Virus record (IMG/VR): IMGVR_UViG_3300013094_005471
Coordinates: 1 to 37,490 of that record
Source: a virus
Length of the DNA: 37,490 nt
Strand: one strand, 5' to 3'
This document shows positions 22,842 through 37,490 of this stretch, piece by piece; positions within the stretch are counted from its first letter, which is position 1; each line of letters starts with the position of its first letter. A model generated the notes under the pieces. It was not told the DNA's origin. It saw nothing but the letters and a program-made list of their open reading frames with translations, and searched no databases. Both the position numbers and the translations under genes were made by a program.

Positions 22842-24089
22842 TTAGGTTGAAGCTGGCACGCCACGACTTGCTGCGACTGCTGAAAAGCTCTGGCCATCGC
22901 CGTCCAACGCAGCCTCTTCACCACTCGCCTCCTGCCAGCGCCGGACGATGACGTCGACATAGGCGGGATCGATCTCCACCAGCACAGCCTGCCGACCGGT
23001 GCGCTCCGCGGCGATCATCGTCGTGCCCGAGCCACCGAACAGGTCCAGGACGGTATCGCGCTGCTTGCTGCTGTTGCGGATGGCGCGCTCGACCAGCGCC
23101 ACCGGCTTCATCGTCGGATGAAGGTCGTTGCGGGCCGGCTTGTCGAAGTGCCAGACGTTTCCCTGGTCCCGGGCGCCGCACCAGTAGTGCTGACTGCCAG
23201 CCTTCCAGCCATAGAGCATAGCCTCGAACTGCTGGTGGTAGTCGGCGCGGCCAAGCGCGAAGGTGTTCTTGGCCCAGATGATGGTGCTCGACCATTTGCC
23301 GCCGGCGTCCTGCCAAGCCCGGTGCAGCGTCGGCCATTCCGACGAGGACATGCAGACGTAGCTGGCACCCTTGGTCATCGCGAGCAGGTTCGTCAGCGCC
23401 GGCCGCAGGAAGTCGATGAAGCCGCCACCCAGTGCGTCATTGGCGATCGTCATCTTGGCTGCCGTGCCGCCCTCGTAGGCAACATTGTAGGGCGGGTCGA
23501 TGAAGGCCATGTCCGCCAGCCGATCGGCGCCGAGGGCGCGCTGGACGTCCTCCAGCTTCGTCGCATCGCCGCACAGCACGCGGTGCGGGCCGCAGACCCA
23601 GAGATCCCCGGTGCGCGACGCTGGCGTCGCCGGCACAGGCGGCACCTCGTCGGCATCGCCGTCATCACCCGCGTCGGCTGCGGCCAGCAACTGGTCGAGT
23701 TCGAGCGGCGAGAAGCCGAGCACGTCGAGGTCGACGGCGCCCTCGTCGCGGATTCTCGCGAGCTCGGCGGCCAGCAGCGTCTCGTCCCAGCCGGAGTTGA
23801 GCGCGATCTGGTTGTCGGCCAGCCGCAGCGCCCGGGCCTGCGCCTCCGTGAGATGCGCGAGCCGAATGGCCGGCACCATGGCGAGGCCGAGCCGCTTAGC
23901 GGCCAGGACGCGGCCATGGCCGGCGACCAGCACGCCCGCGGCATCGACAAGCACCGGGTTCACGAAGCCGAACTCGGCGATCGAGGCAGCGATCTGCCCG
24001 ACCTGTGCCTCGCTGTGCGTCCGCGCGTTGGCGGCATAGGGCACCAACGACGCGGTCGGCACGGATGCCACAGCGATGTCAGGCTGCAT
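22842..24089 (-). CDS. ParB-like nuclease / DNA methyltransferase fusion (DPPY type)
   Basis: A 415-residue protein. ATG 24089 (MQPDIAVASVPTASLVPYAA) has GGAGG 8 nt upstream; a TTG two codons earlier is unlikely. Residues about 8-105 form a ParB N-terminal-like domain with LVPYAANARTHSEAQVGQIA, VLVAGHGRVLAAKRLGL and RLADNQIALN. The rest is a beta-class DNA methyltransferase in which the catalytic motif IV DPPYNVAYEGG (about residue 198) comes before the S-adenosylmethionine motif I DLFGGSGTTMIAAERTGR (about 360). DPPY predicts N6-adenine methylation. Such fusions are common in prophages, without a partner restriction enzyme. A very similar paralogue overlaps its 5' end. Confidence 0.88.
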   Translation of the reverse strand: MQPDIAVASVPTASLVPYAANARTHSEAQVGQIAASIAEFGFVNPVLVDAAGVLVAGHGRVLAAKRLGLAMVPAIRLAHLTEAQARALRLADNQIALNSGWDETLLAAELARIRDEGAVDLDVLGFSPLELDQLLAAADAGDDGDADEVPPVPATPASRTGDLWVCGPHRVLCGDATKLEDVQRALGADRLADMAFIDPPYNVAYEGGTAAKMTIANDALGGGFIDFLRPALTNLLAMTKGASYVCMSSSEWPTLHRAWQDAGGKWSSTIIWAKNTFALGRADYHQQFEAMLYGWKAGSQHYWCGARDQGNVWHFDKPARNDLHPTMKPVALVERAIRNSSKQRDTVLDLFGGSGTTMIAAERTGRQAVLVEIDPAYVDVIVRRWQEASGEEAALDGDGQSFSAVAASRGVPAST

Positions 24090-25563
24090 GGGCAACCTCC
24101 GTCACGCCGCGCGCCGCCGCGACGACGTCATAGTCGAGGCCGTCGCCATCGAGCGTGATCGGCAGGTCGGGATGCAGCGCGCGGAACCGGGCGATGGCGA
24201 GATCGACATAGGCCGGCGCCAACTCGATTGCCCGAACCAGACGGCCGGTGCGCTGGCCGGCGAGGATGGTGGTGCCGGAGCCAGCGAAAGGCTCGAACAC
24301 CAGCGCGCCCTCGTCGGCGAACGTGCGCATCAGGAACTCAGGTAGCTTCACCGGGAACACCGCGGGATGCTCGGTCTCGATGCCGCGCGCCTTGTGGCGG
24401 GTGATACGCAGCACATTGTCGGGGATCCGGGTGTCCTGCACGCCCTGGCCGGCATGGGTCCATTCGCCGACGGTGCCGTCCTTCGCCCGCAGCCCGCCCT
24501 TCTCGGAGTTGACGTGGCCGGCCCAGCGGCAAGGAATGATCTTGTTGGCCTGGCGCGCCGTGCGGTTGAAGTGAAAGACGAACTCGAAGGACGGCGCGAG
24601 CCGCCCGTTCCAGTCGCCGGGTAAGCCAGGCCCCTGATCCCAGACATACCAGCCGAACCGGCGCCAGCCGGCGGTGCGCATCCAGTCGATCCAGCCGGAC
24701 CAGTAGGGCTGCCACTCGGCCTCGCGATGGATCAGGCCGAGGTTGACCAGCACCTGGCCGTCCGGCGCAACCGCAGCATCGAGGTGGCCGCAGACGCCGC
24801 GCATCAGGGCATCCCAGTCACCGATGCCGCCGGTCGTGTAGTCGCGCTGGTTGCCATAGGGCGGCGAGGTGAACAGCAGGGCGGCGCGCTCGTCGCCCAT
24901 CAGCCGCGCCACGGCGGCGGCGTCGGTGGAGTCCCCGCACAGCAGCCGATGGTCGCCGAGCAACCAGAGGTCGCCGGGACGCGTTACCGCCGCGCGGGGC
25001 GGCTCGGGCTCGGCGTCTGCGGGGTCTTCGACCTCATCGTCACCCGATGCGGCCGCGCCACCCGCAATCTCGCCGACCTGATCTTCGTCATCCTGCTCAT
25101 CCGGCGCATCGCCATCGATGACGGCCTCTTCCGCCGCGGCCAGGATGGCGCTGATTTCGTCGCGCGAGAACCCGATGGCGAGCAGATCGACCTCGCCAGC
25201 CTCCTGCAATCCGGCCAGGGCATCGCGCAGCAGCGCCTGGTCCCAGGTCGCGTTCTCGGCGATGCGATTGTCGGCCAGTCGCAGCGCGTCCTTCTGGGCC
25301 GGCGACAAATGCCGCAGCACGATCACTGGCACCTTGGCGATGCCGAGCGCCGACGCAGCCTCGAGGCGTCCATGTCCGGCGATCAGTTCGCCCGCCTCAT
25401 CCACCAGCAGCGGGTTGGTGAAGCCGAAGGTCAGCATACTGGCCTTGATCTGCTCCAACTGCTCCAACTGCTCCGCCGCGTGCTGCCGGGCGTTGCCGGC
25501 GTGCGGACGCAAGTCCGCGACCGGGCGCAGCACGATCTTCGCGGCCATCCATGGGAGGGTCAT
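24079..25563 (-). CDS. ParB-like nuclease / DNA methyltransferase fusion (SPPY type)
   Basis: A 494-residue protein with start taken at ATG 25563 (MTLPWMAAKIVLRPVADLRP); Met at 25548 is an alternative. The ParB-like domain has LRPHAGNARQHAAEQLEQLE, ELIAGHGRLEAASALGIAKV and LRLADNRIAENATWDQALL. An acidic linker (DGDAPDEQDDEDQVGEIAGG) leads to a beta-class methyltransferase with motif IV TSPPYGNQRDYTTGG and motif I EPFAGSGTTILAGQRTGR. The SPPY form is often N4-cytosine-specific, so this enzyme probably targets a different base from its neighbour. It overlaps the downstream gene by 11 bp, so the two are co-expressed. Likely role: self-modification against host restriction, or gene regulation. 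Confidence 0.88.
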   Translation of the reverse strand: MTLPWMAAKIVLRPVADLRPHAGNARQHAAEQLEQLEQIKASMLTFGFTNPLLVDEAGELIAGHGRLEAASALGIAKVPVIVLRHLSPAQKDALRLADNRIAENATWDQALLRDALAGLQEAGEVDLLAIGFSRDEISAILAAAEEAVIDGDAPDEQDDEDQVGEIAGGAAASGDDEVEDPADAEPEPPRAAVTRPGDLWLLGDHRLLCGDSTDAAAVARLMGDERAALLFTSPPYGNQRDYTTGGIGDWDALMRGVCGHLDAAVAPDGQVLVNLGLIHREAEWQPYWSGWIDWMRTAGWRRFGWYVWDQGPGLPGDWNGRLAPSFEFVFHFNRTARQANKIIPCRWAGHVNSEKGGLRAKDGTVGEWTHAGQGVQDTRIPDNVLRITRHKARGIETEHPAVFPVKLPEFLMRTFADEGALVFEPFAGSGTTILAGQRTGRLVRAIELAPAYVDLAIARFRALHPDLPITLDGDGLDYDVVAAARGVTEVAHAA

Positions 25564-25922
25564 CGTGGGCATCCGTGCTGCGTGTGGGGTGCGAACCGCA
25601 CCGACGGTTGGGCGACGCAGGAATGGCGGCAAACTGCGGGCGCAGAAGCGGCGCGTGCGCACCGCGAACCAATTTTGCGACCTGGCGCTAGCTCTTTATC
25701 GCGCTTCCGCTTCCCGCATCGATCCGGCTAGGGAAGGAACCATGGCCTTGCGATGCCGACTGCTGTGGGGGGGGGTGGCTTCGGCCTGCCACCCAAATCG
25801 TCTATCGTGGCCAGACCATAGCCGATGTGGTTCCAGCGCCTCAATCGGGTTTCGTGCGTCTCGCGTTCGCATGGTGGACGTTGTCTATACACTCAGATAA
25901 AATGCAGGCAGGAGAAGCACTC
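25564..25922. other. Intergenic region between methyltransferase and toxin-antitoxin genes
   Basis: About 360 bp divergently flanked. It contains a run of nine G at 25767-25775 and, near the antitoxin gene, TTGTCT-TATACA-GATAAAAT elements (25880-25905) that could be a promoter for the plus-strand pair. A 52-codon frame opens at ATG 25741 after AAGGAA and spans the G-run, but its product is not protein-like and I do not call it. Confidence 0.35.
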
Positions 25923-26255
25923 ATGCTGAAGACAAAGCCGACCACCAAGCCCACTGTCAGTCGAAAGCCCGCGGCCAATCCTGTCGCCACATCCACCACG
26001 GCTGGCGCCATCAACATCCGCGTCCGCGACGACGATCGCACGCTGATCGATCAGGCTGCGCTGCTGGCGGGCAAGTCGCGCTCGGAGTTCATGCTCGACG
26101 CCGCACGCCGCGCGGCCAACGAGACGATCCTCGACCGAGCGCTGTTTCGCATGGCGCCAGCGGCCTTCACGAAGTTTGCCGCCATGCTCGACGCTCCGCC
26201 TCAGCCCAACGAACGCCTGCGCAAGCTGCTGGCGACCAAGGCGCCCTGGGAGTGA
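25923..26255 (+). CDS. DUF1778 antitoxin (TacA-like)
   Basis: A 110-residue protein with GGAG before ATG 25923. After a basic, Thr/Lys-rich tail (MLKTKPTTKPTVSRKPAANP) comes the ribbon-helix-helix DUF1778 core INIRVRDDDRTLIDQAALLA followed by GKSRSEFMLDAARRAANETI. The C-terminal segment FAAMLDAPPQPNERLRKLLA is the toxin-binding part in TacA proteins. It would neutralise the acetyltransferase encoded next to it and repress their shared promoter. The stop overlaps the toxin GTG start by 4 bp. The N-terminal extension of about 35 residues is longer than usual. Confidence 0.85.
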   Translation: MLKTKPTTKPTVSRKPAANPVATSTTAGAINIRVRDDDRTLIDQAALLAGKSRSEFMLDAARRAANETILDRALFRMAPAAFTKFAAMLDAPPQPNERLRKLLATKAPWE

Positions 26256-26755
26256 GCGGAGGCGCGTTGTCTGCGCCGGTTGCGCTCGATGAAGGCCACG
26301 ACTGCACGCTGTTCGATTGCGGTGAGCTGTCGCTGAACGACTGGTTGCGCCGGCGCGCCCTGGCCAACCAGGTCTCGGGTGCCTCGCGGACCTTCGTGGT
26401 CTGCCGGGATGGGTTCGTCGTCGCCTACTACGCCCTTGCCGCTGGGGCGGTGGCCTCGGCCAGTGCGCCCGGGCGAGTGCGGCGGAACATGCCCGACCCG
26501 ATCCCGATGGCCGTGCTCGGCAGGCTCGCCATCGACCGGACCTTGCAGGGCCAGGGCATCGGCCGGGCCCTGCTGCGCGACGCGGTGCTGCGTGTCGTCC
26601 AAGCCGCCGATGCGCTCGCCATTCGCGGCATCCTGGTGCAGGCGATCAGCGAGGATGCCCGGCGGTTCTACATCGCCTGCGGCTTCGTGCCGTCGCCCGG
26701 TGACCCGATGCTGCTGATGGTCACGCTAGGCGACGTCACGGCGTTGCTGGGCTGA
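26252..26755 (+). CDS. GNAT family acetyltransferase toxin (TacT-like)
   Basis: A 167-residue protein with a GTG start inside the antitoxin stop. TacT signatures are FDCGELSLNDWLRRRALANQ, SGASRTFVVCRDGFVVAYYA and PIPMAVLGRLAIDRTLQGQG, followed by IGRALLRDAVLRV, the acetyl-CoA-binding QGQGIG loop. Also present is a conserved catalytic Tyr in ARRFYIACGFVPSPGDP. These enzymes acetylate the amino acid on charged tRNAs and stop translation. This is the second complete toxin-antitoxin pair in the element, after BrnTA. Confidence 0.88.
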   Translation: MSGGALSAPVALDEGHDCTLFDCGELSLNDWLRRRALANQVSGASRTFVVCRDGFVVAYYALAAGAVASASAPGRVRRNMPDPIPMAVLGRLAIDRTLQGQGIGRALLRDAVLRVVQAADALAIRGILVQAISEDARRFYIACGFVPSPGDPMLLMVTLGDVTALLG

Positions 26756-27314: not shown

Positions 27315-27531
27315 GGTGTTGTCCTCCGAGACGCCGCCCCCAGCGGCGGTTGGCTTCGTTGGTGACCGCCTGCCGCAGCCACGGATCGGTGATGTCGTCG
27401 ATGGCGAGCGAGGCCACGCCGTGGTCGCGCCAGACCCGCGCCCGCATGGCTTCGAGGTCCTGGGGCGTGGATGGGCTGCGTGCCAGGTCCAGAGACGACC
27501 GGGGCGGTTGCGGCGCATAGGGCAGCCTCAT
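27304..27531 (-). CDS. Small hypothetical phage protein (75 aa)
   Basis: A 75-residue protein starting at ATG 27531, which overlaps the RuvC-like stop as ATGA; the longer frame upstream is an Arg-rich shadow of RuvC. The central part STPQDLEAMRARVWRDHGVA followed by SLAIDDITDPWLRQAVTNEA resembles small phage proteins with a short helix-rich motif, and it ends NRRWGRRLGGQ. No family is certain. The coupled overlaps on both sides support translation. Confidence 0.6.
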   Translation of the reverse strand: MRLPYAPQPPRSSLDLARSPSTPQDLEAMRARVWRDHGVASLAIDDITDPWLRQAVTNEANRRWGRRLGGQHHGR

Positions 27532-28079
27532 GCCGCGCCGCCTTGGGCATTGATCGCCCACAGCAGGATGGCCAGGGCGTCGGCTTCGTTGTCGTCGGCC
27601 GGCGCGAAGCCGCGGGCCTTGATCGCGGCGATGACCGCCTCCTTGCCGACGTTGCCCTTGCCGGTCGCGAAGCGCTTGATCGTGCCGACCGGGACGCCCT
27701 CGTAGGGCACCGCACGCTCTTCGCACCAGGCGGTGAGGTGGCCGAGGAAGCCGCCGTAGATGTGGGCGGCGTCGGTGCCGGCATGGGCACGGACTTCCTC
27801 GAACACGACGCGATCGAAGCCGCGGGACAGCTGGCTGACCTCGGCGAGCCATCCGCGGAAGCGGAGGTAGCGCATGCCACCGCCTTCGAAGCGGGTGGGT
27901 TTGAAGGCGATGGTGCCGGAGGTGATTGCGCCGTCACGGCTGCGCAGTGCCCAGCCGGTGTTGGTGCCGAGGTCGACGGCAAGGACGATTTGGCGGGCCG
28001 TGCTCGGCGCACGGCTGATAGGCGCATGGGGCGGCAGGCTTGCGTCAGGTGCCCGAGCCGCCAGAGTGGTGGAAGCCAT
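27528..28079 (-). CDS. RuvC-like Holliday junction resolvase
   Basis: A 183-residue protein with GGAG before ATG 28079. After a disordered leader of about 30 residues comes an RNase H-fold nuclease: strand 1 IVLAVDLGTNTGWAL (first catalytic Asp), FDRVVFEEVRAHAGTDAAHI (Glu), then VPYEGVPVGTIKRFATGKGN, KEAVIAAIKARGF and the terminal acidic ADDNEADALAILLW (last catalytic Asp). These match phage and bacterial RuvC-type resolvases, which resolve branched DNA before packaging. It is on the replication-operon strand, downstream of the repeat array. Confidence 0.8.
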   Translation of the reverse strand: MASTTLAARAPDASLPPHAPISRAPSTARQIVLAVDLGTNTGWALRSRDGAITSGTIAFKPTRFEGGGMRYLRFRGWLAEVSQLSRGFDRVVFEEVRAHAGTDAAHIYGGFLGHLTAWCEERAVPYEGVPVGTIKRFATGKGNVGKEAVIAAIKARGFAPADDNEADALAILLWAINAQGGAA

Positions 28080-28500
28080 GGTGATCTCCTGCGAGGGGGA
28101 TTGGTGTGGTCAGGGCGATGTCGACGCGGTTCTTGGCGGAGCTCGTCGGCATCGCCCGCCTCGGCGGTGGCGGGTCAGTAGGAGGGGGATCACGGGCCCG
28201 CCCTACGGCACCACGGGTGCGGTGTGCGCGCGCCAAACTGGCGCGCACGCACACCCCCCGTAGGGGGGTGGTTTTGTGCGGAACTTCCCGACCTTCCGTA
28301 AGCTTCTGAATTCGTGAGATATTTTCAAGTTCCGCAGGCAAGTTCCGCAAAGCTTCCGTGCGGAACTTGCGGAACTTGGACAACCCATTGATCACGTTGG
28401 GGAATTCAAGTTCCGCAACCAAGTTCCGCAGGATTGCGGAACTTGCGGAACTTCCAAGTTCCGCAGCAAGTTCCGCACGCCAGAATGCCCCATCGGTCAT
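28045..28500 (-). CDS. Possible 151-aa protein spanning the repeat array
   Basis: ATG 28500 overlaps the primase-helicase stop as ATGA, the coupling pattern used throughout this operon. The frame stays open across the repeat array and into the RuvC-like gene. The first 80 residues (MTDGAFWRAELAAELGSSAS and so on, with repeated AEL/KF motifs from the DNA repeats) could be real; the rest is Arg/Pro-rich and looks untranslated. Either a genuine small protein encoded through the repeats or a chance frame. Confidence 0.3.
   Translation of the reverse strand: MTDGAFWRAELAAELGSSASSAILRNLVAELEFPNVINGLSKFRKFRTEALRNLPAELENISRIQKLTEGREVPHKTTPLRGVCVRASLARAHRTRGAVGRARDPPPTDPPPPRRAMPTSSAKNRVDIALTTPIPLAGDHHGFHHSGGSGT
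28224..28274. terminator. Tandem hairpins next to the repeat array
   Basis: Hairpin one has GCGCGCCA (28228-28235) pairing with TGGCGCGC (28239-28246). Hairpin two has CACCCCCC (28252-28259) pairing with GGGGGGTG (28263-28270) around GTA, followed on the plus strand by GTTTTG. They lie between the RuvC-like gene and the repeats. They could be a terminator for plus-strand transcription or structural elements of an origin. Confidence 0.5.
28278..28476. repeat. Iteron-like array of GCGGAACTT in both orientations
   Basis: There are eleven perfect copies in 199 bp. Plus orientation copies start at 28278, 28360, 28369, 28436 and 28445; reverse copies (AAGTTCCGC) start at 28327, 28340, 28408, 28421, 28456 and 28468. 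The order is modular: two reverse copies 13 bp apart followed by two head-to-tail forward copies 9 bp apart, and this module occurs twice (28327-28377 and 28408-28453) with a half module after it. An AT-rich stretch (about 28308-28330) sits at one edge. It lies just downstream of the primase-helicase gene. The arrangement suggests protein binding sites of a phage origin or partition centre (inference). Confidence 0.75.
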
Positions 28501-29750
28501 GCCGCACCCCCGTCCAGATCGGGGTCGGTGAGCACCCACACCTCGGGGTTTTCGACCGGCAGCACCGCGTGGTTCGTCTCGGACTGAAAATGGGTCGGCA
28601 GGAGCCGAACCTGCTGCCTGGTGACCTCCCCGGTGTCCGGATCCACCTCCTCCTGGTCGGAGGCGAACAGCATGTCCTGGACGACGAGGTAGCCCTTGCT
28701 GGACCTGCTCGGGGCGATACCGAGATCGGGCGCGGCTCGGAGGAACTTGATGTAGCCCTTGTTGGCGAGGACGTTGATACGCCTGGAGATTGTGTCCTCG
28801 CCGCCGAGGCCATGGGTGTTCTCGAACTGGGCGGCGAAGGCCCCGCCAGTGAACACGCGACCAGCGAGGGCCTCATTGGCGATGATGTCGAGGATGAGGT
28901 CCTGCCGGCGCGTGCGCTCGGCATCGAGCCTGCTGCCGAGATGCTGGCGGACGAGCCGCTCGCCTCGGGCATCGAGCTCGATCCAGCGCCCGTTGCGCTT
29001 GTCGATGATCATGGCATCGAGCGCAGGGCCGTTGCGCAGCTCGATCTCGAGGCGGCGTTCCGGCTGATCCTCCTCGGGCCGGTACATGATGATCCCCGAC
29101 GTGTAGAAGCTGCGTAGCGCGCTGGCGCCGGACAGCGCCATGAACGGGTCCTCGGTCAGCGCCTTCTTCGCCACCTTCTTGGTGTGGTGGCAGAGGATCA
29201 GCCCGGCGTCGGGTGCCACGGCCTCGCGCACGGCCTCGACCCGGCTTTGCAGAAAGAACAGCATGGCGGTGTTGTCGTTTTCGCCGTCCCCGTCGGGCCC
29301 GCCATCGAACAGGTTGCGGATCGGGTCGATGCAGATGATGTCCGGCGGTTCGGTCGGGAAGTGCGCCTGGATGGCGGCGATGGTGAGCGCCACGCCGTTG
29401 TCGAGATCGACCAGCGCAGTCTGCATCTGCTGGACATGCTCGGCGCGGGCCTCGCCGTGCGCGGCGACCGTGCCGGGGATGACATAGACCGCGCTGCCTT
29501 CCTTGGCCGCCCAGGCGGCGTAGGTGGCGAGCAGGTCGGGAGCGGTGGCGTCGGCGTTGATCCAGATATTGTGCGGGCGGGTCGTATGGCCCTGGCCGAC
29601 ATCGACGAAGCCGCGGACGGGAATCAGGCCGTCGCAGTAGCCGAACACCACGTCGAGGAAGGTGGCGAGCGCCCCGTGGTTGATGCCAACGGTGCCGTTC
29701 TCCTCCCAAGGCAGGCCAGGCGCATCATTGAAGTCGCGCCATGCGTTCAT
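28497..29750 (-). CDS. Phage primase-helicase with internal deletion (AEP N-terminus joined to RecA-like C-part)
   Basis: A 417-residue protein starting at ATG 29750, overlapping the nuclease stop (ATGA). Residues 1-118 match the N-terminal part of alphaproteobacterial phage primase-polymerases (FLDVVFGYCDGLIPVRGFVD, AVYVIPGTVAAHGEARAEHV, QQMQTALVDLDNG). From about residue 122 it continues directly into the Walker B region of a RepA-like helicase, PDIICIDPIRNLFDGGPDG, then LILCHHTKKVAKKAL, MALSGASALRSFYTSGIIMY and a C-terminal winged-helix-like part. No Walker A (GxxxxGK[T/S]) and no full primase active site are present. The join is in frame near 29385-29400. The product should lack ATPase and priming activity. 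Confidence 0.75.
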   Translation of the reverse strand: MNAWRDFNDAPGLPWEENGTVGINHGALATFLDVVFGYCDGLIPVRGFVDVGQGHTTRPHNIWINADATAPDLLATYAAWAAKEGSAVYVIPGTVAAHGEARAEHVQQMQTALVDLDNGVALTIAAIQAHFPTEPPDIICIDPIRNLFDGGPDGDGENDNTAMLFFLQSRVEAVREAVAPDAGLILCHHTKKVAKKALTEDPFMALSGASALRSFYTSGIIMYRPEEDQPERRLEIELRNGPALDAMIIDKRNGRWIELDARGERLVRQHLGSRLDAERTRRQDLILDIIANEALAGRVFTGGAFAAQFENTHGLGGEDTISRRINVLANKGYIKFLRAAPDLGIAPSRSSKGYLVVQDMLFASDQEEVDPDTGEVTRQQVRLLPTHFQSETNHAVLPVENPEVWVLTDPDLDGGAA

Positions 29751-30720: not shown

Positions 30721-31777
30721 GCCGGCCGACCTGCGCGCCAAGCGCGACCAGAAGCCCTGGCAGGGCATGGAGCAAAACCAGCGCGGCAATGACGATGGCT
30801 TCGAGCGCCGCGGGGGCGACCAGCCAAAGCCATGCGCCGGCCGCCGGCAGACCGCGCAGAGATGCCAGCGCGGATGCCAGAGGCGGTACCGATCGGCGGC
30901 GGATGACCACCACCTGCGCCTCGCCGGCGGCATAGGCAGCGAGTGCATTGCGGCGCTCGCCATCCGGCATGTCGCCGGTGACCACCACCGTGGGGACGCC
31001 GCCCCGGTTGAAGGCGGCGGCGACGTGCTCGGCATGGCCGACAGTCGAGCAGAACACCACGGTCTGCCGATCGCCGGCATGCTCGCGCCAGTGCTTCAGC
31101 ACAGCGTCGGTCACCGGGACGGTGTCCATGACCCGCGCGACCGCGGCCATGTCGTAGTCCTCGCCGGCCCGCGGCACATTGCGGAGATCATCCTGGACGC
31201 CGACGTCGATGACGAAGGTGCGCGGCTTGACCAGGTGGCCGGAGGCGATCAACTCACCGAGCCTGATCTGGTCGGCAACGTTCGAGAAGACCTTGCGCAG
31301 CCCCTTGCGGTCGCCGCGGTTCGGCGTGGCGGTGACGCCGAACACCCGGCACATCGGGTTGCGATCGAGCGCGCGATCGATGACACGACGGTAGCTGTCG
31401 GCGATGACGTGGTGCGCCTCGTCGATCACCAGCAGGTCGAGCGCCGGCATGGCATCGAGATTGGCGGCGCGCGCCAGCGTCGGCACCATGGCGAAGGTGA
31501 CCTGGCCGGCCCAGGACTTCTCTGCCGCGTCGACCACCGAAGTGGCGACGCCCGGCGCAACGCGGCGGAACTTGCTGCGGTTCTGGTCGGTCAGTTCGTC
31601 GCGGTGCGCGAGGACGGCGGCCTTCGCGCCGGAGCCGGCGATCCGGTCGCGCACCACGGCGGAGAGCATGATGGTCTTGCCCGCCCCTGTCGGAGCGACA
31701 CCGAGGGTATTGGTGTGCTCGTCGAGCGCGCGCAGGCTGCGCTCGACGAACTGCTTCTGACGGGGACGGAGCAACAT
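30713..31777 (-). CDS. SF2 DEAD/DEAH helicase, truncated and fused to a membrane-peptide tail
   Basis: A 354-residue protein starting at ATG 31777 (MLLRPRQKQFVERSLRALDE). It has helicase motif I VAPTGAGKT, motif II LLVIDEAHH, motif III FGVTATPNRGDRKG and motif IV-like TVVFCSTVGHAEHVAAAF, ending in AAYAAGEAQVVV at residue 291. There the helicase should continue into motifs V and VI (TEGWD, QMVGRGLR), but the sequence changes to a 63-residue tail with a hydrophobic segment AWLWLVAPAALEAIVIAALV followed by LLHALPGLLVAL. The tail ends overlapping the next ATG. The join (about 30904) is in frame and the protein is probably inactive. Confidence 0.75.
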   Translation of the reverse strand: MLLRPRQKQFVERSLRALDEHTNTLGVAPTGAGKTIMLSAVVRDRIAGSGAKAAVLAHRDELTDQNRSKFRRVAPGVATSVVDAAEKSWAGQVTFAMVPTLARAANLDAMPALDLLVIDEAHHVIADSYRRVIDRALDRNPMCRVFGVTATPNRGDRKGLRKVFSNVADQIRLGELIASGHLVKPRTFVIDVGVQDDLRNVPRAGEDYDMAAVARVMDTVPVTDAVLKHWREHAGDRQTVVFCSTVGHAEHVAAAFNRGGVPTVVVTGDMPDGERRNALAAYAAGEAQVVVIRRRSVPPLASALASLRGLPAAGAWLWLVAPAALEAIVIAALVLLHALPGLLVALGAQVGRHG

Positions 31778-34704: not shown

Positions 34705-37490
34705 CGGCCATCCACCTCGATATCGAAATGGAGACCGGCACCGGCAAGACCTACTGCTACATCAAGACCATCTTCGAGATGAACAAGCGTTATGGTTGGT
34801 CGAAGTTCATTATCATGGTGCCCTCGATTGCCATCCGCGAGGGGGTCTACAAATCGCTGCAAATCACTGCAGAGCACTTCACAGAAGGCTACGGAAAGAG
34901 GGCAAGGTTCTTCATCTACAATTCCAAGCAGTTGCACGAGCTGGAGAGCTTCTCGTCCGACGCCGGCATCAGCGTCATGATCATGAACATCCAGGCGTTC
35001 AATGCCCGCGGTGCCGACAACCGCCGCATCTACGACGAGCTTGACAATTTCCAGTCCCGCAAGCCGATCGACGTGATCGCCGCCAACCGGCCCATCCTGA
35101 TCCTGGATGAGCCGCAGAAGATGCAGGGTACGGCGACGATGGAGGCGCTGCCGAAGTTCAAGTCGCTGATGATACTGCGCTATTCCGCCACTCACAGCAC
35201 CCAGCACAACCGTGTGCACCGTCTCGATGCGCTGGATGCCTTCAACCAGAAGCTAGTGAAGAAGATCGCGGTACGCGGCATCCAGACCCGTGGCCTGGCT
35301 GGCACCAATGCCTACCTCTATCTGGAAGGCATCGAGATTTCGAAGCAAGCCCCGGTGGCGCGGATCGACCTCGAGGTCCGGCTGAAGTCGGGCGAGATCA
35401 AGCGCCAGATGCGGCGGTTAGAGTTCCGTGACAGCCTTTTCGTGGCCTCCGGGGAGCTTGACCAGTACCGCGAGGGCTTCGTCATTTCGCAGATCGACGC
35501 GCGCAATGACACCGTCGAATTCGCAAATGGAGTCATCCTGCACGCCGGCGAGGCGACCGGGGACGTCTCGGAGGTTGACATTCGCCGCATCCAGATTCGC
35601 GAGACGATCAAGGCGCACTTCGACAAGGAAAAGCAGCTCTTTGCCGAGGGGATCAAGGTTCTCTCGCTCTTCTTCATCGACGAGGTGGTGAAGTACCGCG
35701 ACTACGCGCGGCCAGATACCAATGGCGAATACGCTCGTGTCTTCGCGGAGGAGTACGATCTCATCAAGTCGGACTACCTATCGGAGCTGGCGGTCGACAA
35801 CGCGGCCTATCGTGCCTATCTGAGCGGCATCGACGCCGCCCAGACCCACAAGGGCTACTTCTCGATCGACAAGAAGACCAACCGGTTGAAGGACCCGGAT
35901 GCCGCCAAGACGGGCGACAACAAGGGCCAGTCCGATGACTCCGACGCATATGACCTGATCCTGAAGGACAAGGAACGGTTGTTGTCCTTCGCGGAACCCA
36001 CGCGGTTCATCTTCTCTCACTCAGCGCTGCGCGAAGGTTGGGACAACCCAAACGTCTTCGTCATGTGCATGCTCAAGCACAGCGACAACACCATCTCACG
36101 GCGCCAGGAGGTGGGGCGCGGCCTGCGCCTTAGCGTCAATCAGCAGGGCGACCGCATGGACCAGCCGGCGGTGGTGCATGATATCAACGTGCTCACGGTC
36201 GTCGCCAGCGAGAGCTACAAGGCCTTTGTGGCCGGGCTGCAGAGTGAGATCGCTGAAACTCTGTCCTCCCGTCCACGGCAGGCGACGGAGGCCTATTTCA
36301 CCGGTAAGACCATCGTTACCGAGCAAGGTGAATTCCAGGTCACCGGGGCGATGGCGAAGCAGATCTATCGCTACCTGCTGAAGAACGACTACACCGATGA
36401 TGCCGACAACATCGCCGAGGCCTATCACGCCGCCAAGACGGCGGGCACTCTGGCGGCCCTGTCGGAAGAGCTCAAGCCATACACCGACCAGGTGTTCCAG
36501 CTGATCGACAGTGTCTTCAGCGCCGCACAGATGCCCAAGATCGATGACGGCCGGAAGCCGAAGACCAATCCGCTCAATGCGAATTTCGAGAAGAAGGAGT
36601 TCCAGGAGCTGTGGTCGCGGATCAATCGCAAGGCCGTCTATCGGGTTGAGTTCGACTCATCGGAACTGATCGGAAAGTGCATCAGCGCGCTGAATGGCGA
36701 TCTGCGCGTGACCCCGCTCCAGTACACAGTTCAGAGCGGTGAACAAAACGCGGGCCTGACCGACAGCCAGCTTCGAGCCGGCGACGGCTTCACGGTCACG
36801 AGCACGACGACCGAGAGGGGCGACTCCATCCACTCGCGGGTGAAGTATGATTTGGTGGGGAAGGTCGCGGAAAAGGCTCAACTCACGCGGGAAACCACCG
36901 CCAGCATACTGAAGCAGATCGAGCCGGCTGTTTTCGCGCAGTTCAAGCAGAACCCTGAGCACTTCATCTCCGAGGCGTCGCGAATCCTCTCGGAGCAGAA
37001 GGCATCCATGGTGATCGAGCGCCTGGCCTACGGCGATGTGGGCGAGGGATTTACCGTGGACATCTTCACAGCCGCGCAGACTGGGCAGGACCTCTCGCGC
37101 GCCACGGCGCAGCTCAAGAAGCATGTCTACGATTATGCGATTACCGACTCAAATGTGGAGCGGGAGTTCGTCGACGAATTGGACACGAGCAGCGAGGTGG
37201 TCGTCTACGCTAAGCTCCCACGCGGCTTCCTCATCCCAACTCCAGTGGGCGACTACAACCCGGATTGGGCGATCTCCTTCCAAGCTGGCCACGTGAAGCA
37301 CATCTACTTCGTCGCAGAGACCAAGGGCTCAATGTCGTCGCTGAAGCTGCGAGAGATCGAGAGAACCAAGATCGAGTGCGCGAGGAAGTTCTTCGACGAG
37401 ATCAACCTGCGGGTCACCGAGGATCGCGTCAGGTATGACGTCGTCACCGACTACGCCAAACTGATGGATATCGTCGGCCGTGCGCCATGA
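34705..37490 (+). CDS. res: Type III restriction endonuclease Res subunit, N-terminally truncated
   Basis: From about 34705 the frame reads [20 protein letters not shown], the Walker A region of a type III Res ATPase, and continues about 927 residues to TGA at 37488-37490. The first ATG is 34728, within motif I. Other motifs are [10 protein letters not shown] (DExx box), [32 protein letters not shown] and [15 protein letters not shown] (motif VI). The C-terminal nuclease has [11 protein letters not shown] and YFVAETKGS (PD-x-ExK). The usual N-terminal 50-60 residues before motif I, and any Mod (methyltransferase) gene, are missing. Without Mod no specific cleavage is expected, though ATPase and nuclease domains remain. 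Confidence 0.85.

Follow-up and report, generated by a model that had tools for sequence, protein, structure and literature searches.

What is the cluster of short repeats beside the replication gene of the IMG/VR virus record IMGVR_UViG_3300013094_005471, and which protein reads it? The window analysed here is that whole stretch, a complete virus record of 37,490 bases in which terminase, portal and head genes are present. On one side of the cluster a minus-strand primase-helicase gene ends with its stop codon (28497), and on the other side lies a RuvC-like resolvase gene. A preliminary description, made from the letters alone, had taken the cluster for a candidate replication origin. The comparison of relatives strongly supports this proposal through two observations, the covariation of the repeats with the winged helix at the end of the primase-helicase and the joint exchange of both, from which we infer origin activity. 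On these sequence data the array is very probably the replication origin of an Acetobacteraceae tailed phage.

The eleven perfect 9-bp repeats in 199 bp that had been described are exact copies of GCGGAACTT and the two modules are arranged as claimed, with a third reverse pair and a single forward copy in addition:

28278..28476, no single strand: iteron array, 11 exact GCGGAACTT 9-mers in both orientations (> << >> << >> <<), spaced as in about 20 other contigs
28327..28377, no single strand: module 1, reverse copies at 28327 and 28340, then head-to-tail forward copies at 28360 and 28369
28408..28453, no single strand: module 2, reverse copies at 28408 and 28421, then head-to-tail forward copies at 28436 and 28445

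Plus-strand copies are thus found at 28278, 28360, 28369, 28436 and 28445, and minus-strand copies at 28327, 28340, 28408, 28421, 28456 and 28468, while a twelfth copy stands isolated at 31565. The 12 exact matches in the whole window compare with 0.21 expected and with a maximum of 2 in 100 shuffles, i.e. short repeats clustered far above chance, as in iteron origins. Relatives with the full set have 12 copies in the array; in the window, the first forward pair has lost its second copy (spacing of 49 versus their 9+40).

The preliminary description had also placed an AT-rich stretch and two strong hairpins at one side of the array. The hairpins are there, with a z of about −3.5 for both strands folded as single-stranded DNA, whereas the AT-richness is only relative, the array spacers having 50-55% A+T versus 32% for the window:

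28221..28255, no single strand: hairpin 1, GGTGTGCGCGCGCC-AAACT-GGCGCGCACGCACACC, retained in all repeat types of the group
28254..28268, no single strand: hairpin 2, CCCCCC-GTA-GGGGGG, stem preserved in distant relatives

We searched for the same modules in other genomes. Scanning viral contigs for the head-to-tail pair gave 28 contigs, about 17 of them with the whole array, plus further genome contigs; as the preliminary description had proposed to check, the modules lie beside primase-helicase genes, at identical spacing, in about 20 other phage or prophage contigs of Acetobacteraceae (Roseomonas group). The whole arrays are exactly equal in spacing and 199 bp long in most, and the repeats are constant, in contrast to the variable bases that separate them. 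Scans with the hairpin core extended the set to 52 viral contigs and 32 genome contigs, the latter nearly all from Acetobacteraceae or Rhodospirillales (Roseomonas, Falsiroseomonas, Neoroseomonas, Roseococcus, Siccirubricoccus and others). Every hairpin-core locus with enough sequence has an array at the same position, with a differing repeat word:

repeat type A: AAGTTCCGCA
repeat type B: CAGTTTCGG
repeat type C: CAGTTGCCA
repeat type D: AAGCTGCCA
repeat type E: GGAGTTAGG
repeat type F: CAGTTGGGA

Relatives selected by protein add the words CCAGATTCC and CAGATTTC and an ACTCATAT type. The distance from the helicase stop to the hairpin core is 142-257 bp in every locus reaching that far, and the array adjoins the primase-helicase gene wherever both are present, in agreement with its reported place next to the replication gene. 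Where the repeats of the window are missing beside a conserved helicase, a different array of equal layout stands in their stead. A dispersed host repeat was rejected, with no dispersed copies in 12 host genomes, where 15 of the 15 tandem matches adjoin the helicase gene. No similar DNA was found by blastn in annotated phages and plasmids.

The preliminary description had further suggested that the array might be translated as part of a small gene. Open frames do span it in the window and in many type A relatives; however, none is common to the types, the type E arrays are closed in every frame, and third codon positions are the least variable ones (0.124 versus 0.151-0.163) in the frame that stays most open. 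We give practically no credence to an array that encodes part of a small protein.

Which protein reads the repeats was then approached through the neighbouring gene, whose parts are as follows:

28497..29750, minus strand: primase-helicase gene, start MNAWRDFN, about 345 residues fewer than relatives
28683..28904, minus strand: winged-helix part of the C-terminal domain (three helices and a wing), proposed iteron reader (AlphaFold2, type-specific columns)
28500..28682, minus strand: beta-rich C-terminal extension, also type-specific
28269..28925, no single strand: exchangeable cassette, approximate (winged helix, C-terminal extension and array), from DNA identity profiles and the alignment

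In an alignment of 56 distinct primase-helicase proteins, the identity of the ATPase is independent of repeat type (same-type minus different-type 0.012, permutation standard deviation 0.010), whereas that of the C-terminal domain depends fully on it (difference 0.274, permutation standard deviation 0.012; 0.83 for same-type versus 0.56 for different-type pairs). The two classes do not overlap at the C-terminus, the lowest same-type value (0.69) exceeding the highest different-type value (0.66), and the dependence is complete from the motif LDAERxRR through the C-terminus, with the cassette edge at about alignment column 200. As label permutation ignores descent, trees were built too: the ATPase tree needs 16 changes of repeat type, against 5 for the C-terminal tree, the smallest number possible. 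Some pairs share 98-99% of their ATPase and only 57-61% of their C-terminal residues, and have different repeats; in one of type B with type C (L057 and L050) the ATPase is identical over the tree columns at a C-terminal identity of 57%. At the DNA level, relative pairs are mostly about 85-100% identical until about 700 bp before the hairpins; identity drops to about 50-70% over the C-terminal domain and the array and recovers at the hairpins, leaving a sharp-edged island of about 650 bp.

Because repeat type tracks the C-terminal domain and not the ATPase, and because the DNA island is sharp-edged, the winged helix and the array move as one unit, a specificity cassette that is exchanged while the helicase core and the hairpins on either side stay constant. 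The exact covariation points to repeats that are specific to an initiator encoded by the neighbouring gene, as in iteron origins. Among the binders that had been put forward, the winged-helix end of the primase-helicase is strongly supported by this perfect covariation and joint exchange, and nothing points to the DUF3489 or DUF6456 proteins; that the winged helix reads the iterons is highly probable from the comparison. The AlphaFold2 model of the C-terminal domain (mean predicted local distance difference test, pLDDT, 84.5) consists of a winged helix and a beta extension, and among the type-specific alignment columns are those of the third (recognition) helix and of the wing. The domain has no RepA_N match, with weak LexA-like winged-helix matches only, and neither a sequence match nor a clear fold match to a known RepC. 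The rest of the protein was examined in a full-length relative of 787 residues (L078), in which Pfam finds an AAA_25 domain and a weak RepB_primase match. By Foldseek, its model matches the S-2L PrimPol domain (1.3e-9), RSF1010 RepB' (3h20, E 2e-8; 3h25, 2.6e-6) and RSF1010 RepA (1g8y, 1.4e-3).

These observations also bear on a structured RNA, a leader or attenuator in which the inverted copies pair and type changes are compensatory. The inverted copies are indeed able to pair, and their complementarity survives a change of repeat type; but the direct copies are kept identical as well, which RNA pairing does not require, repeat type tracks a DNA-binding domain, and DNA sites resembling those of the integration host factor (IHF) lie between the repeats. 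An RNA function is, on this evidence, extremely improbable.

The IHF-like sites were identified with the consensus WATCAANNNNTTR, and the window contains two, one of them degenerate:

28381..28393, minus strand: candidate IHF site in spacer 2, GATCAATGGGTTG, 1 mismatch to WATCAANNNNTTR, the sole match with at most 1 mismatch in the window
28299..28311, minus strand: degenerate IHF counterpart in spacer 1, ATTCAGAAGCTTA, 2 mismatches, perfect or with 1 mismatch at the same offset in many relatives

Across 65 distinct arrays there are 74 IHF-like matches with at most 1 mismatch, all on one strand and at offsets 29-31 or 109-112, i.e. 1.14 per array versus 0.16 in shuffles. The relative A+T content and these predicted sites together correspond to the AT-rich segment with architectural-protein sites of an iteron origin, and their placement makes it likely that IHF takes part.

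The origin could then work as follows. The C-terminal winged helix of the primase-helicase would bind the 9-bp iterons, as the exact covariation indicates, and host IHF would bend the two spacers between iteron pairs, folding the array into a compact complex, which is suggested by where the sites are placed. By analogy, a RepA-like ring of the same protein would open the DNA and unwind toward the hairpins, and its RepB'-like primase domain might prime at or near them, as at the ssi sites of RSF1010. The hairpins are, tentatively and by the same analogy, candidate primase start sites. Among protein-selected relatives hairpin 2 keeps its stem although both arms have changed, and its loop is mostly GTA or GAA. 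As intrinsic terminators the hairpins were rejected, with no T run following them in gene direction.

The same parts, winged helix and IHF, are common at operators, and the array lies upstream of the next gene:

27528..28079, minus strand: RuvC-like Holliday junction resolvase gene, flanking on the far side of the hairpins (phrog_159, E 2e-32)

It could therefore be a regulatory operator at which the winged helix and IHF control the RuvC-like gene and beyond, or limit synthesis of the primase-helicase itself, with no replication start; replication at the array is, after all, deduced. However, the array comes after the initiator gene and not ahead of its operon, its proposed reader is the C-terminal part of a primase-helicase, the length, the geometry and the conserved hairpins suit an origin better, and the known systems of such logic (P4, PLE and RSF1010) are origins. 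We consider an operator unlikely. Less probable still, at a level we regard as slight, is a role in partition, as a centromere-like site, or in recognition for packaging. Direct and inverted repeats combined with IHF sites can serve those functions too, and two genes (22842-25662, minus strand), each a ParB_N domain fused to an N6/N4 DNA methylase domain, neighbour each other in the window near the array. Against this, the sole protein part shown to covary, in a comparison within the primase-helicase, is the C-terminus of that protein, and the terminase gene is about 8 kb from the array.

Several points weigh against the origin as proposed. The support is computational, consisting of sequence comparison and structure models. 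The primase-helicase of the window lacks about 345 residues that L078 has, among them the Walker A motif and part of the primase domain; this gap is either a real deletion or an assembly error, and because its helicase is internally deleted, the window copy may not replicate by itself. The model of full-length L078 has a low overall confidence (predicted template modelling score, pTM, 0.37), and the C-terminal domain has, by sequence or fold, only weak general winged-helix matches in the PDB. IHF-like sites are absent or weak in 8 of the 65 arrays, and clear ones are wanting in many distant relatives. Moreover, the first set of relatives was picked by part of the hairpin sequence, so that hairpin constancy there is partly built in, and the hairpins are more variable in the protein-selected set.

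Several of the host genomes (L200-L212) contain two to four such prophages, often of mixed types (A+E, B+E), which could supply material for exchange. Mutual exclusion of same-type prophages was not seen (N. alba has A, A and E; F. tokyonensis has B, B, E and E), and such exclusion is not expected to matter for integrated prophages. In the type E loci (L060, L090, L121, L130 and L138) the helicase frame enters the array, and the iterons also encode C-terminal DLTP-like repeats. A further locus, L032:860-1040, presents an array of AAGTTCCGC with IHF-like sites and the hairpin CCCTACTTTAGTAGGG in the layout of the window; the protein of that phage, resembling an archaeo-eukaryotic primase (AEP) plus AAA_25, has no BLAST similarity to that of the window, and the repeat word is possibly the same by convergence or distant descent. 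Elsewhere in the window, a TacA-like antitoxin is followed by a GNAT acetyltransferase (25827-26755, plus strand), probably a TacAT-type toxin-antitoxin pair, and a large protein with ResIII and endonuclease domains (34728-37490, plus strand; type III restriction Res-like) reaches the end of the record.

The phage group is a natural replicated experiment, in which the specificities of initiator and origin shift together between helicase cores 98-99% identical, in at least six matched pairs. This may reflect diversifying selection on the origin specificity of these phages, for instance as an escape from origin-directed nucleases or competing replicons, as with PLE and the phage ICP1. A nuclease with the same winged helix was not found in 12 host genomes, which gave only long helicase-type frames.

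The winged helix reaches beyond this group. In Wolbachia phage WO, the 'RepA/ATPase' gene of WOVitA1 has the same C-terminal winged helix (41% identity, E 8e-37), and after it comes an array built of AAGTTGGC/AAGATGGC; these words match 12 times in 6.7 kb, where 0.5 would be expected. Nine matches are at 3710-3917 of L213 (KX522565), with a perfect IHF consensus, and from its sequence we regard L213:3710-3920 as a candidate origin of phage WO. WO differs from the phages described here in having, as read from sequence, a TOPRIM-type and not an AEP-type primase half, and in its single IHF-like site and AT-rich hairpin. WOVitA2, with a truncated C-terminus, has no such array in the stretch examined. 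A genomics paper on WO mentions only the Wolbachia chromosomal origin and not a WO origin function (PMC9203015). An Eleftheria terrae plasmid has the same C-terminal domain with CAGTTGGC repeats.

It is conceivable, though we would not yet favour it, that phages of Alphaproteobacteria and of hosts beyond them trade a portable cassette of winged helix and iterons, in ten or more DNA specificities, and that it becomes joined to primase-helicases of either the AEP or the TOPRIM type, while the hairpins stay constant and act as primase start sites. If so, nature would have supplied many matched pairs of protein and DNA in which to study origin recognition, and the origin of phage WO would be placed. 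This winged helix followed by an array is a signature that marks candidate origins in phages without a described one, WO included.

Among known systems, the lambdoid O protein and its iterons also link initiator and origin repeats that differ between related phages. In lambda, however, the iterons are part of the O gene, whose product loads the host helicase via P, whereas here the array comes after the gene and the initiator carries its own helicase. In RSF1010, the iterons are bound by RepC, unwinding is done by RepA, and ssiA and ssiB are the hairpin sites at which RepB' primes. The present loci resemble its oriV in having iterons beside hairpins together with, by predicted fold, a RepB'-like primase and a RepA-like helicase, and the two conserved hairpins beside the array may be primase sites, as ssiA and ssiB are. 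They differ in that the three functions are in one polypeptide, which has no sequence match to RepC, and in iterons that are short and in both orientations.

The alpha protein of P4 unites in one chain a primase, a helicase and a winged helix, the last of which binds the origin repeats, and its primase is of the TOPRIM type (PMC4234260). The same combination of a single primase-helicase-winged helix protein with origin repeats is found here by Pfam, fold and covariation, but with a primase that by fold is AEP-type instead of TOPRIM, a RepA/DnaB-like helicase and a different winged helix. The P4 alpha helicase is SF3-type, and we know of no cassette exchange of this scale in P4.

The nearest tested precedent is the phage-inducible chromosomal island-like element (PLE) of Vibrio cholerae, in which the DNA-binding domain of RepA covaries with ori while the remainder is conserved, and the modules are exchanged; replication with swapped origins requires cognate RepA/ori pairs (PMC8263062). 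The principle of covariation is therefore already known. PLE has two groups of RepA_N-type proteins and, in PLE1, three iterons of about 30 bp, whereas the phage group described here has at least six types, 9-bp iterons, IHF-like sites and hairpins, and a different winged helix without RepA_N match, fused to its own primase and helicase. Relative to PLE, the loci described here differ in how the protein is built, in how many specificities there are, in an array geometry that is fixed and includes IHF-like sites, and in the clear, repeated exchange between otherwise near-identical phages.
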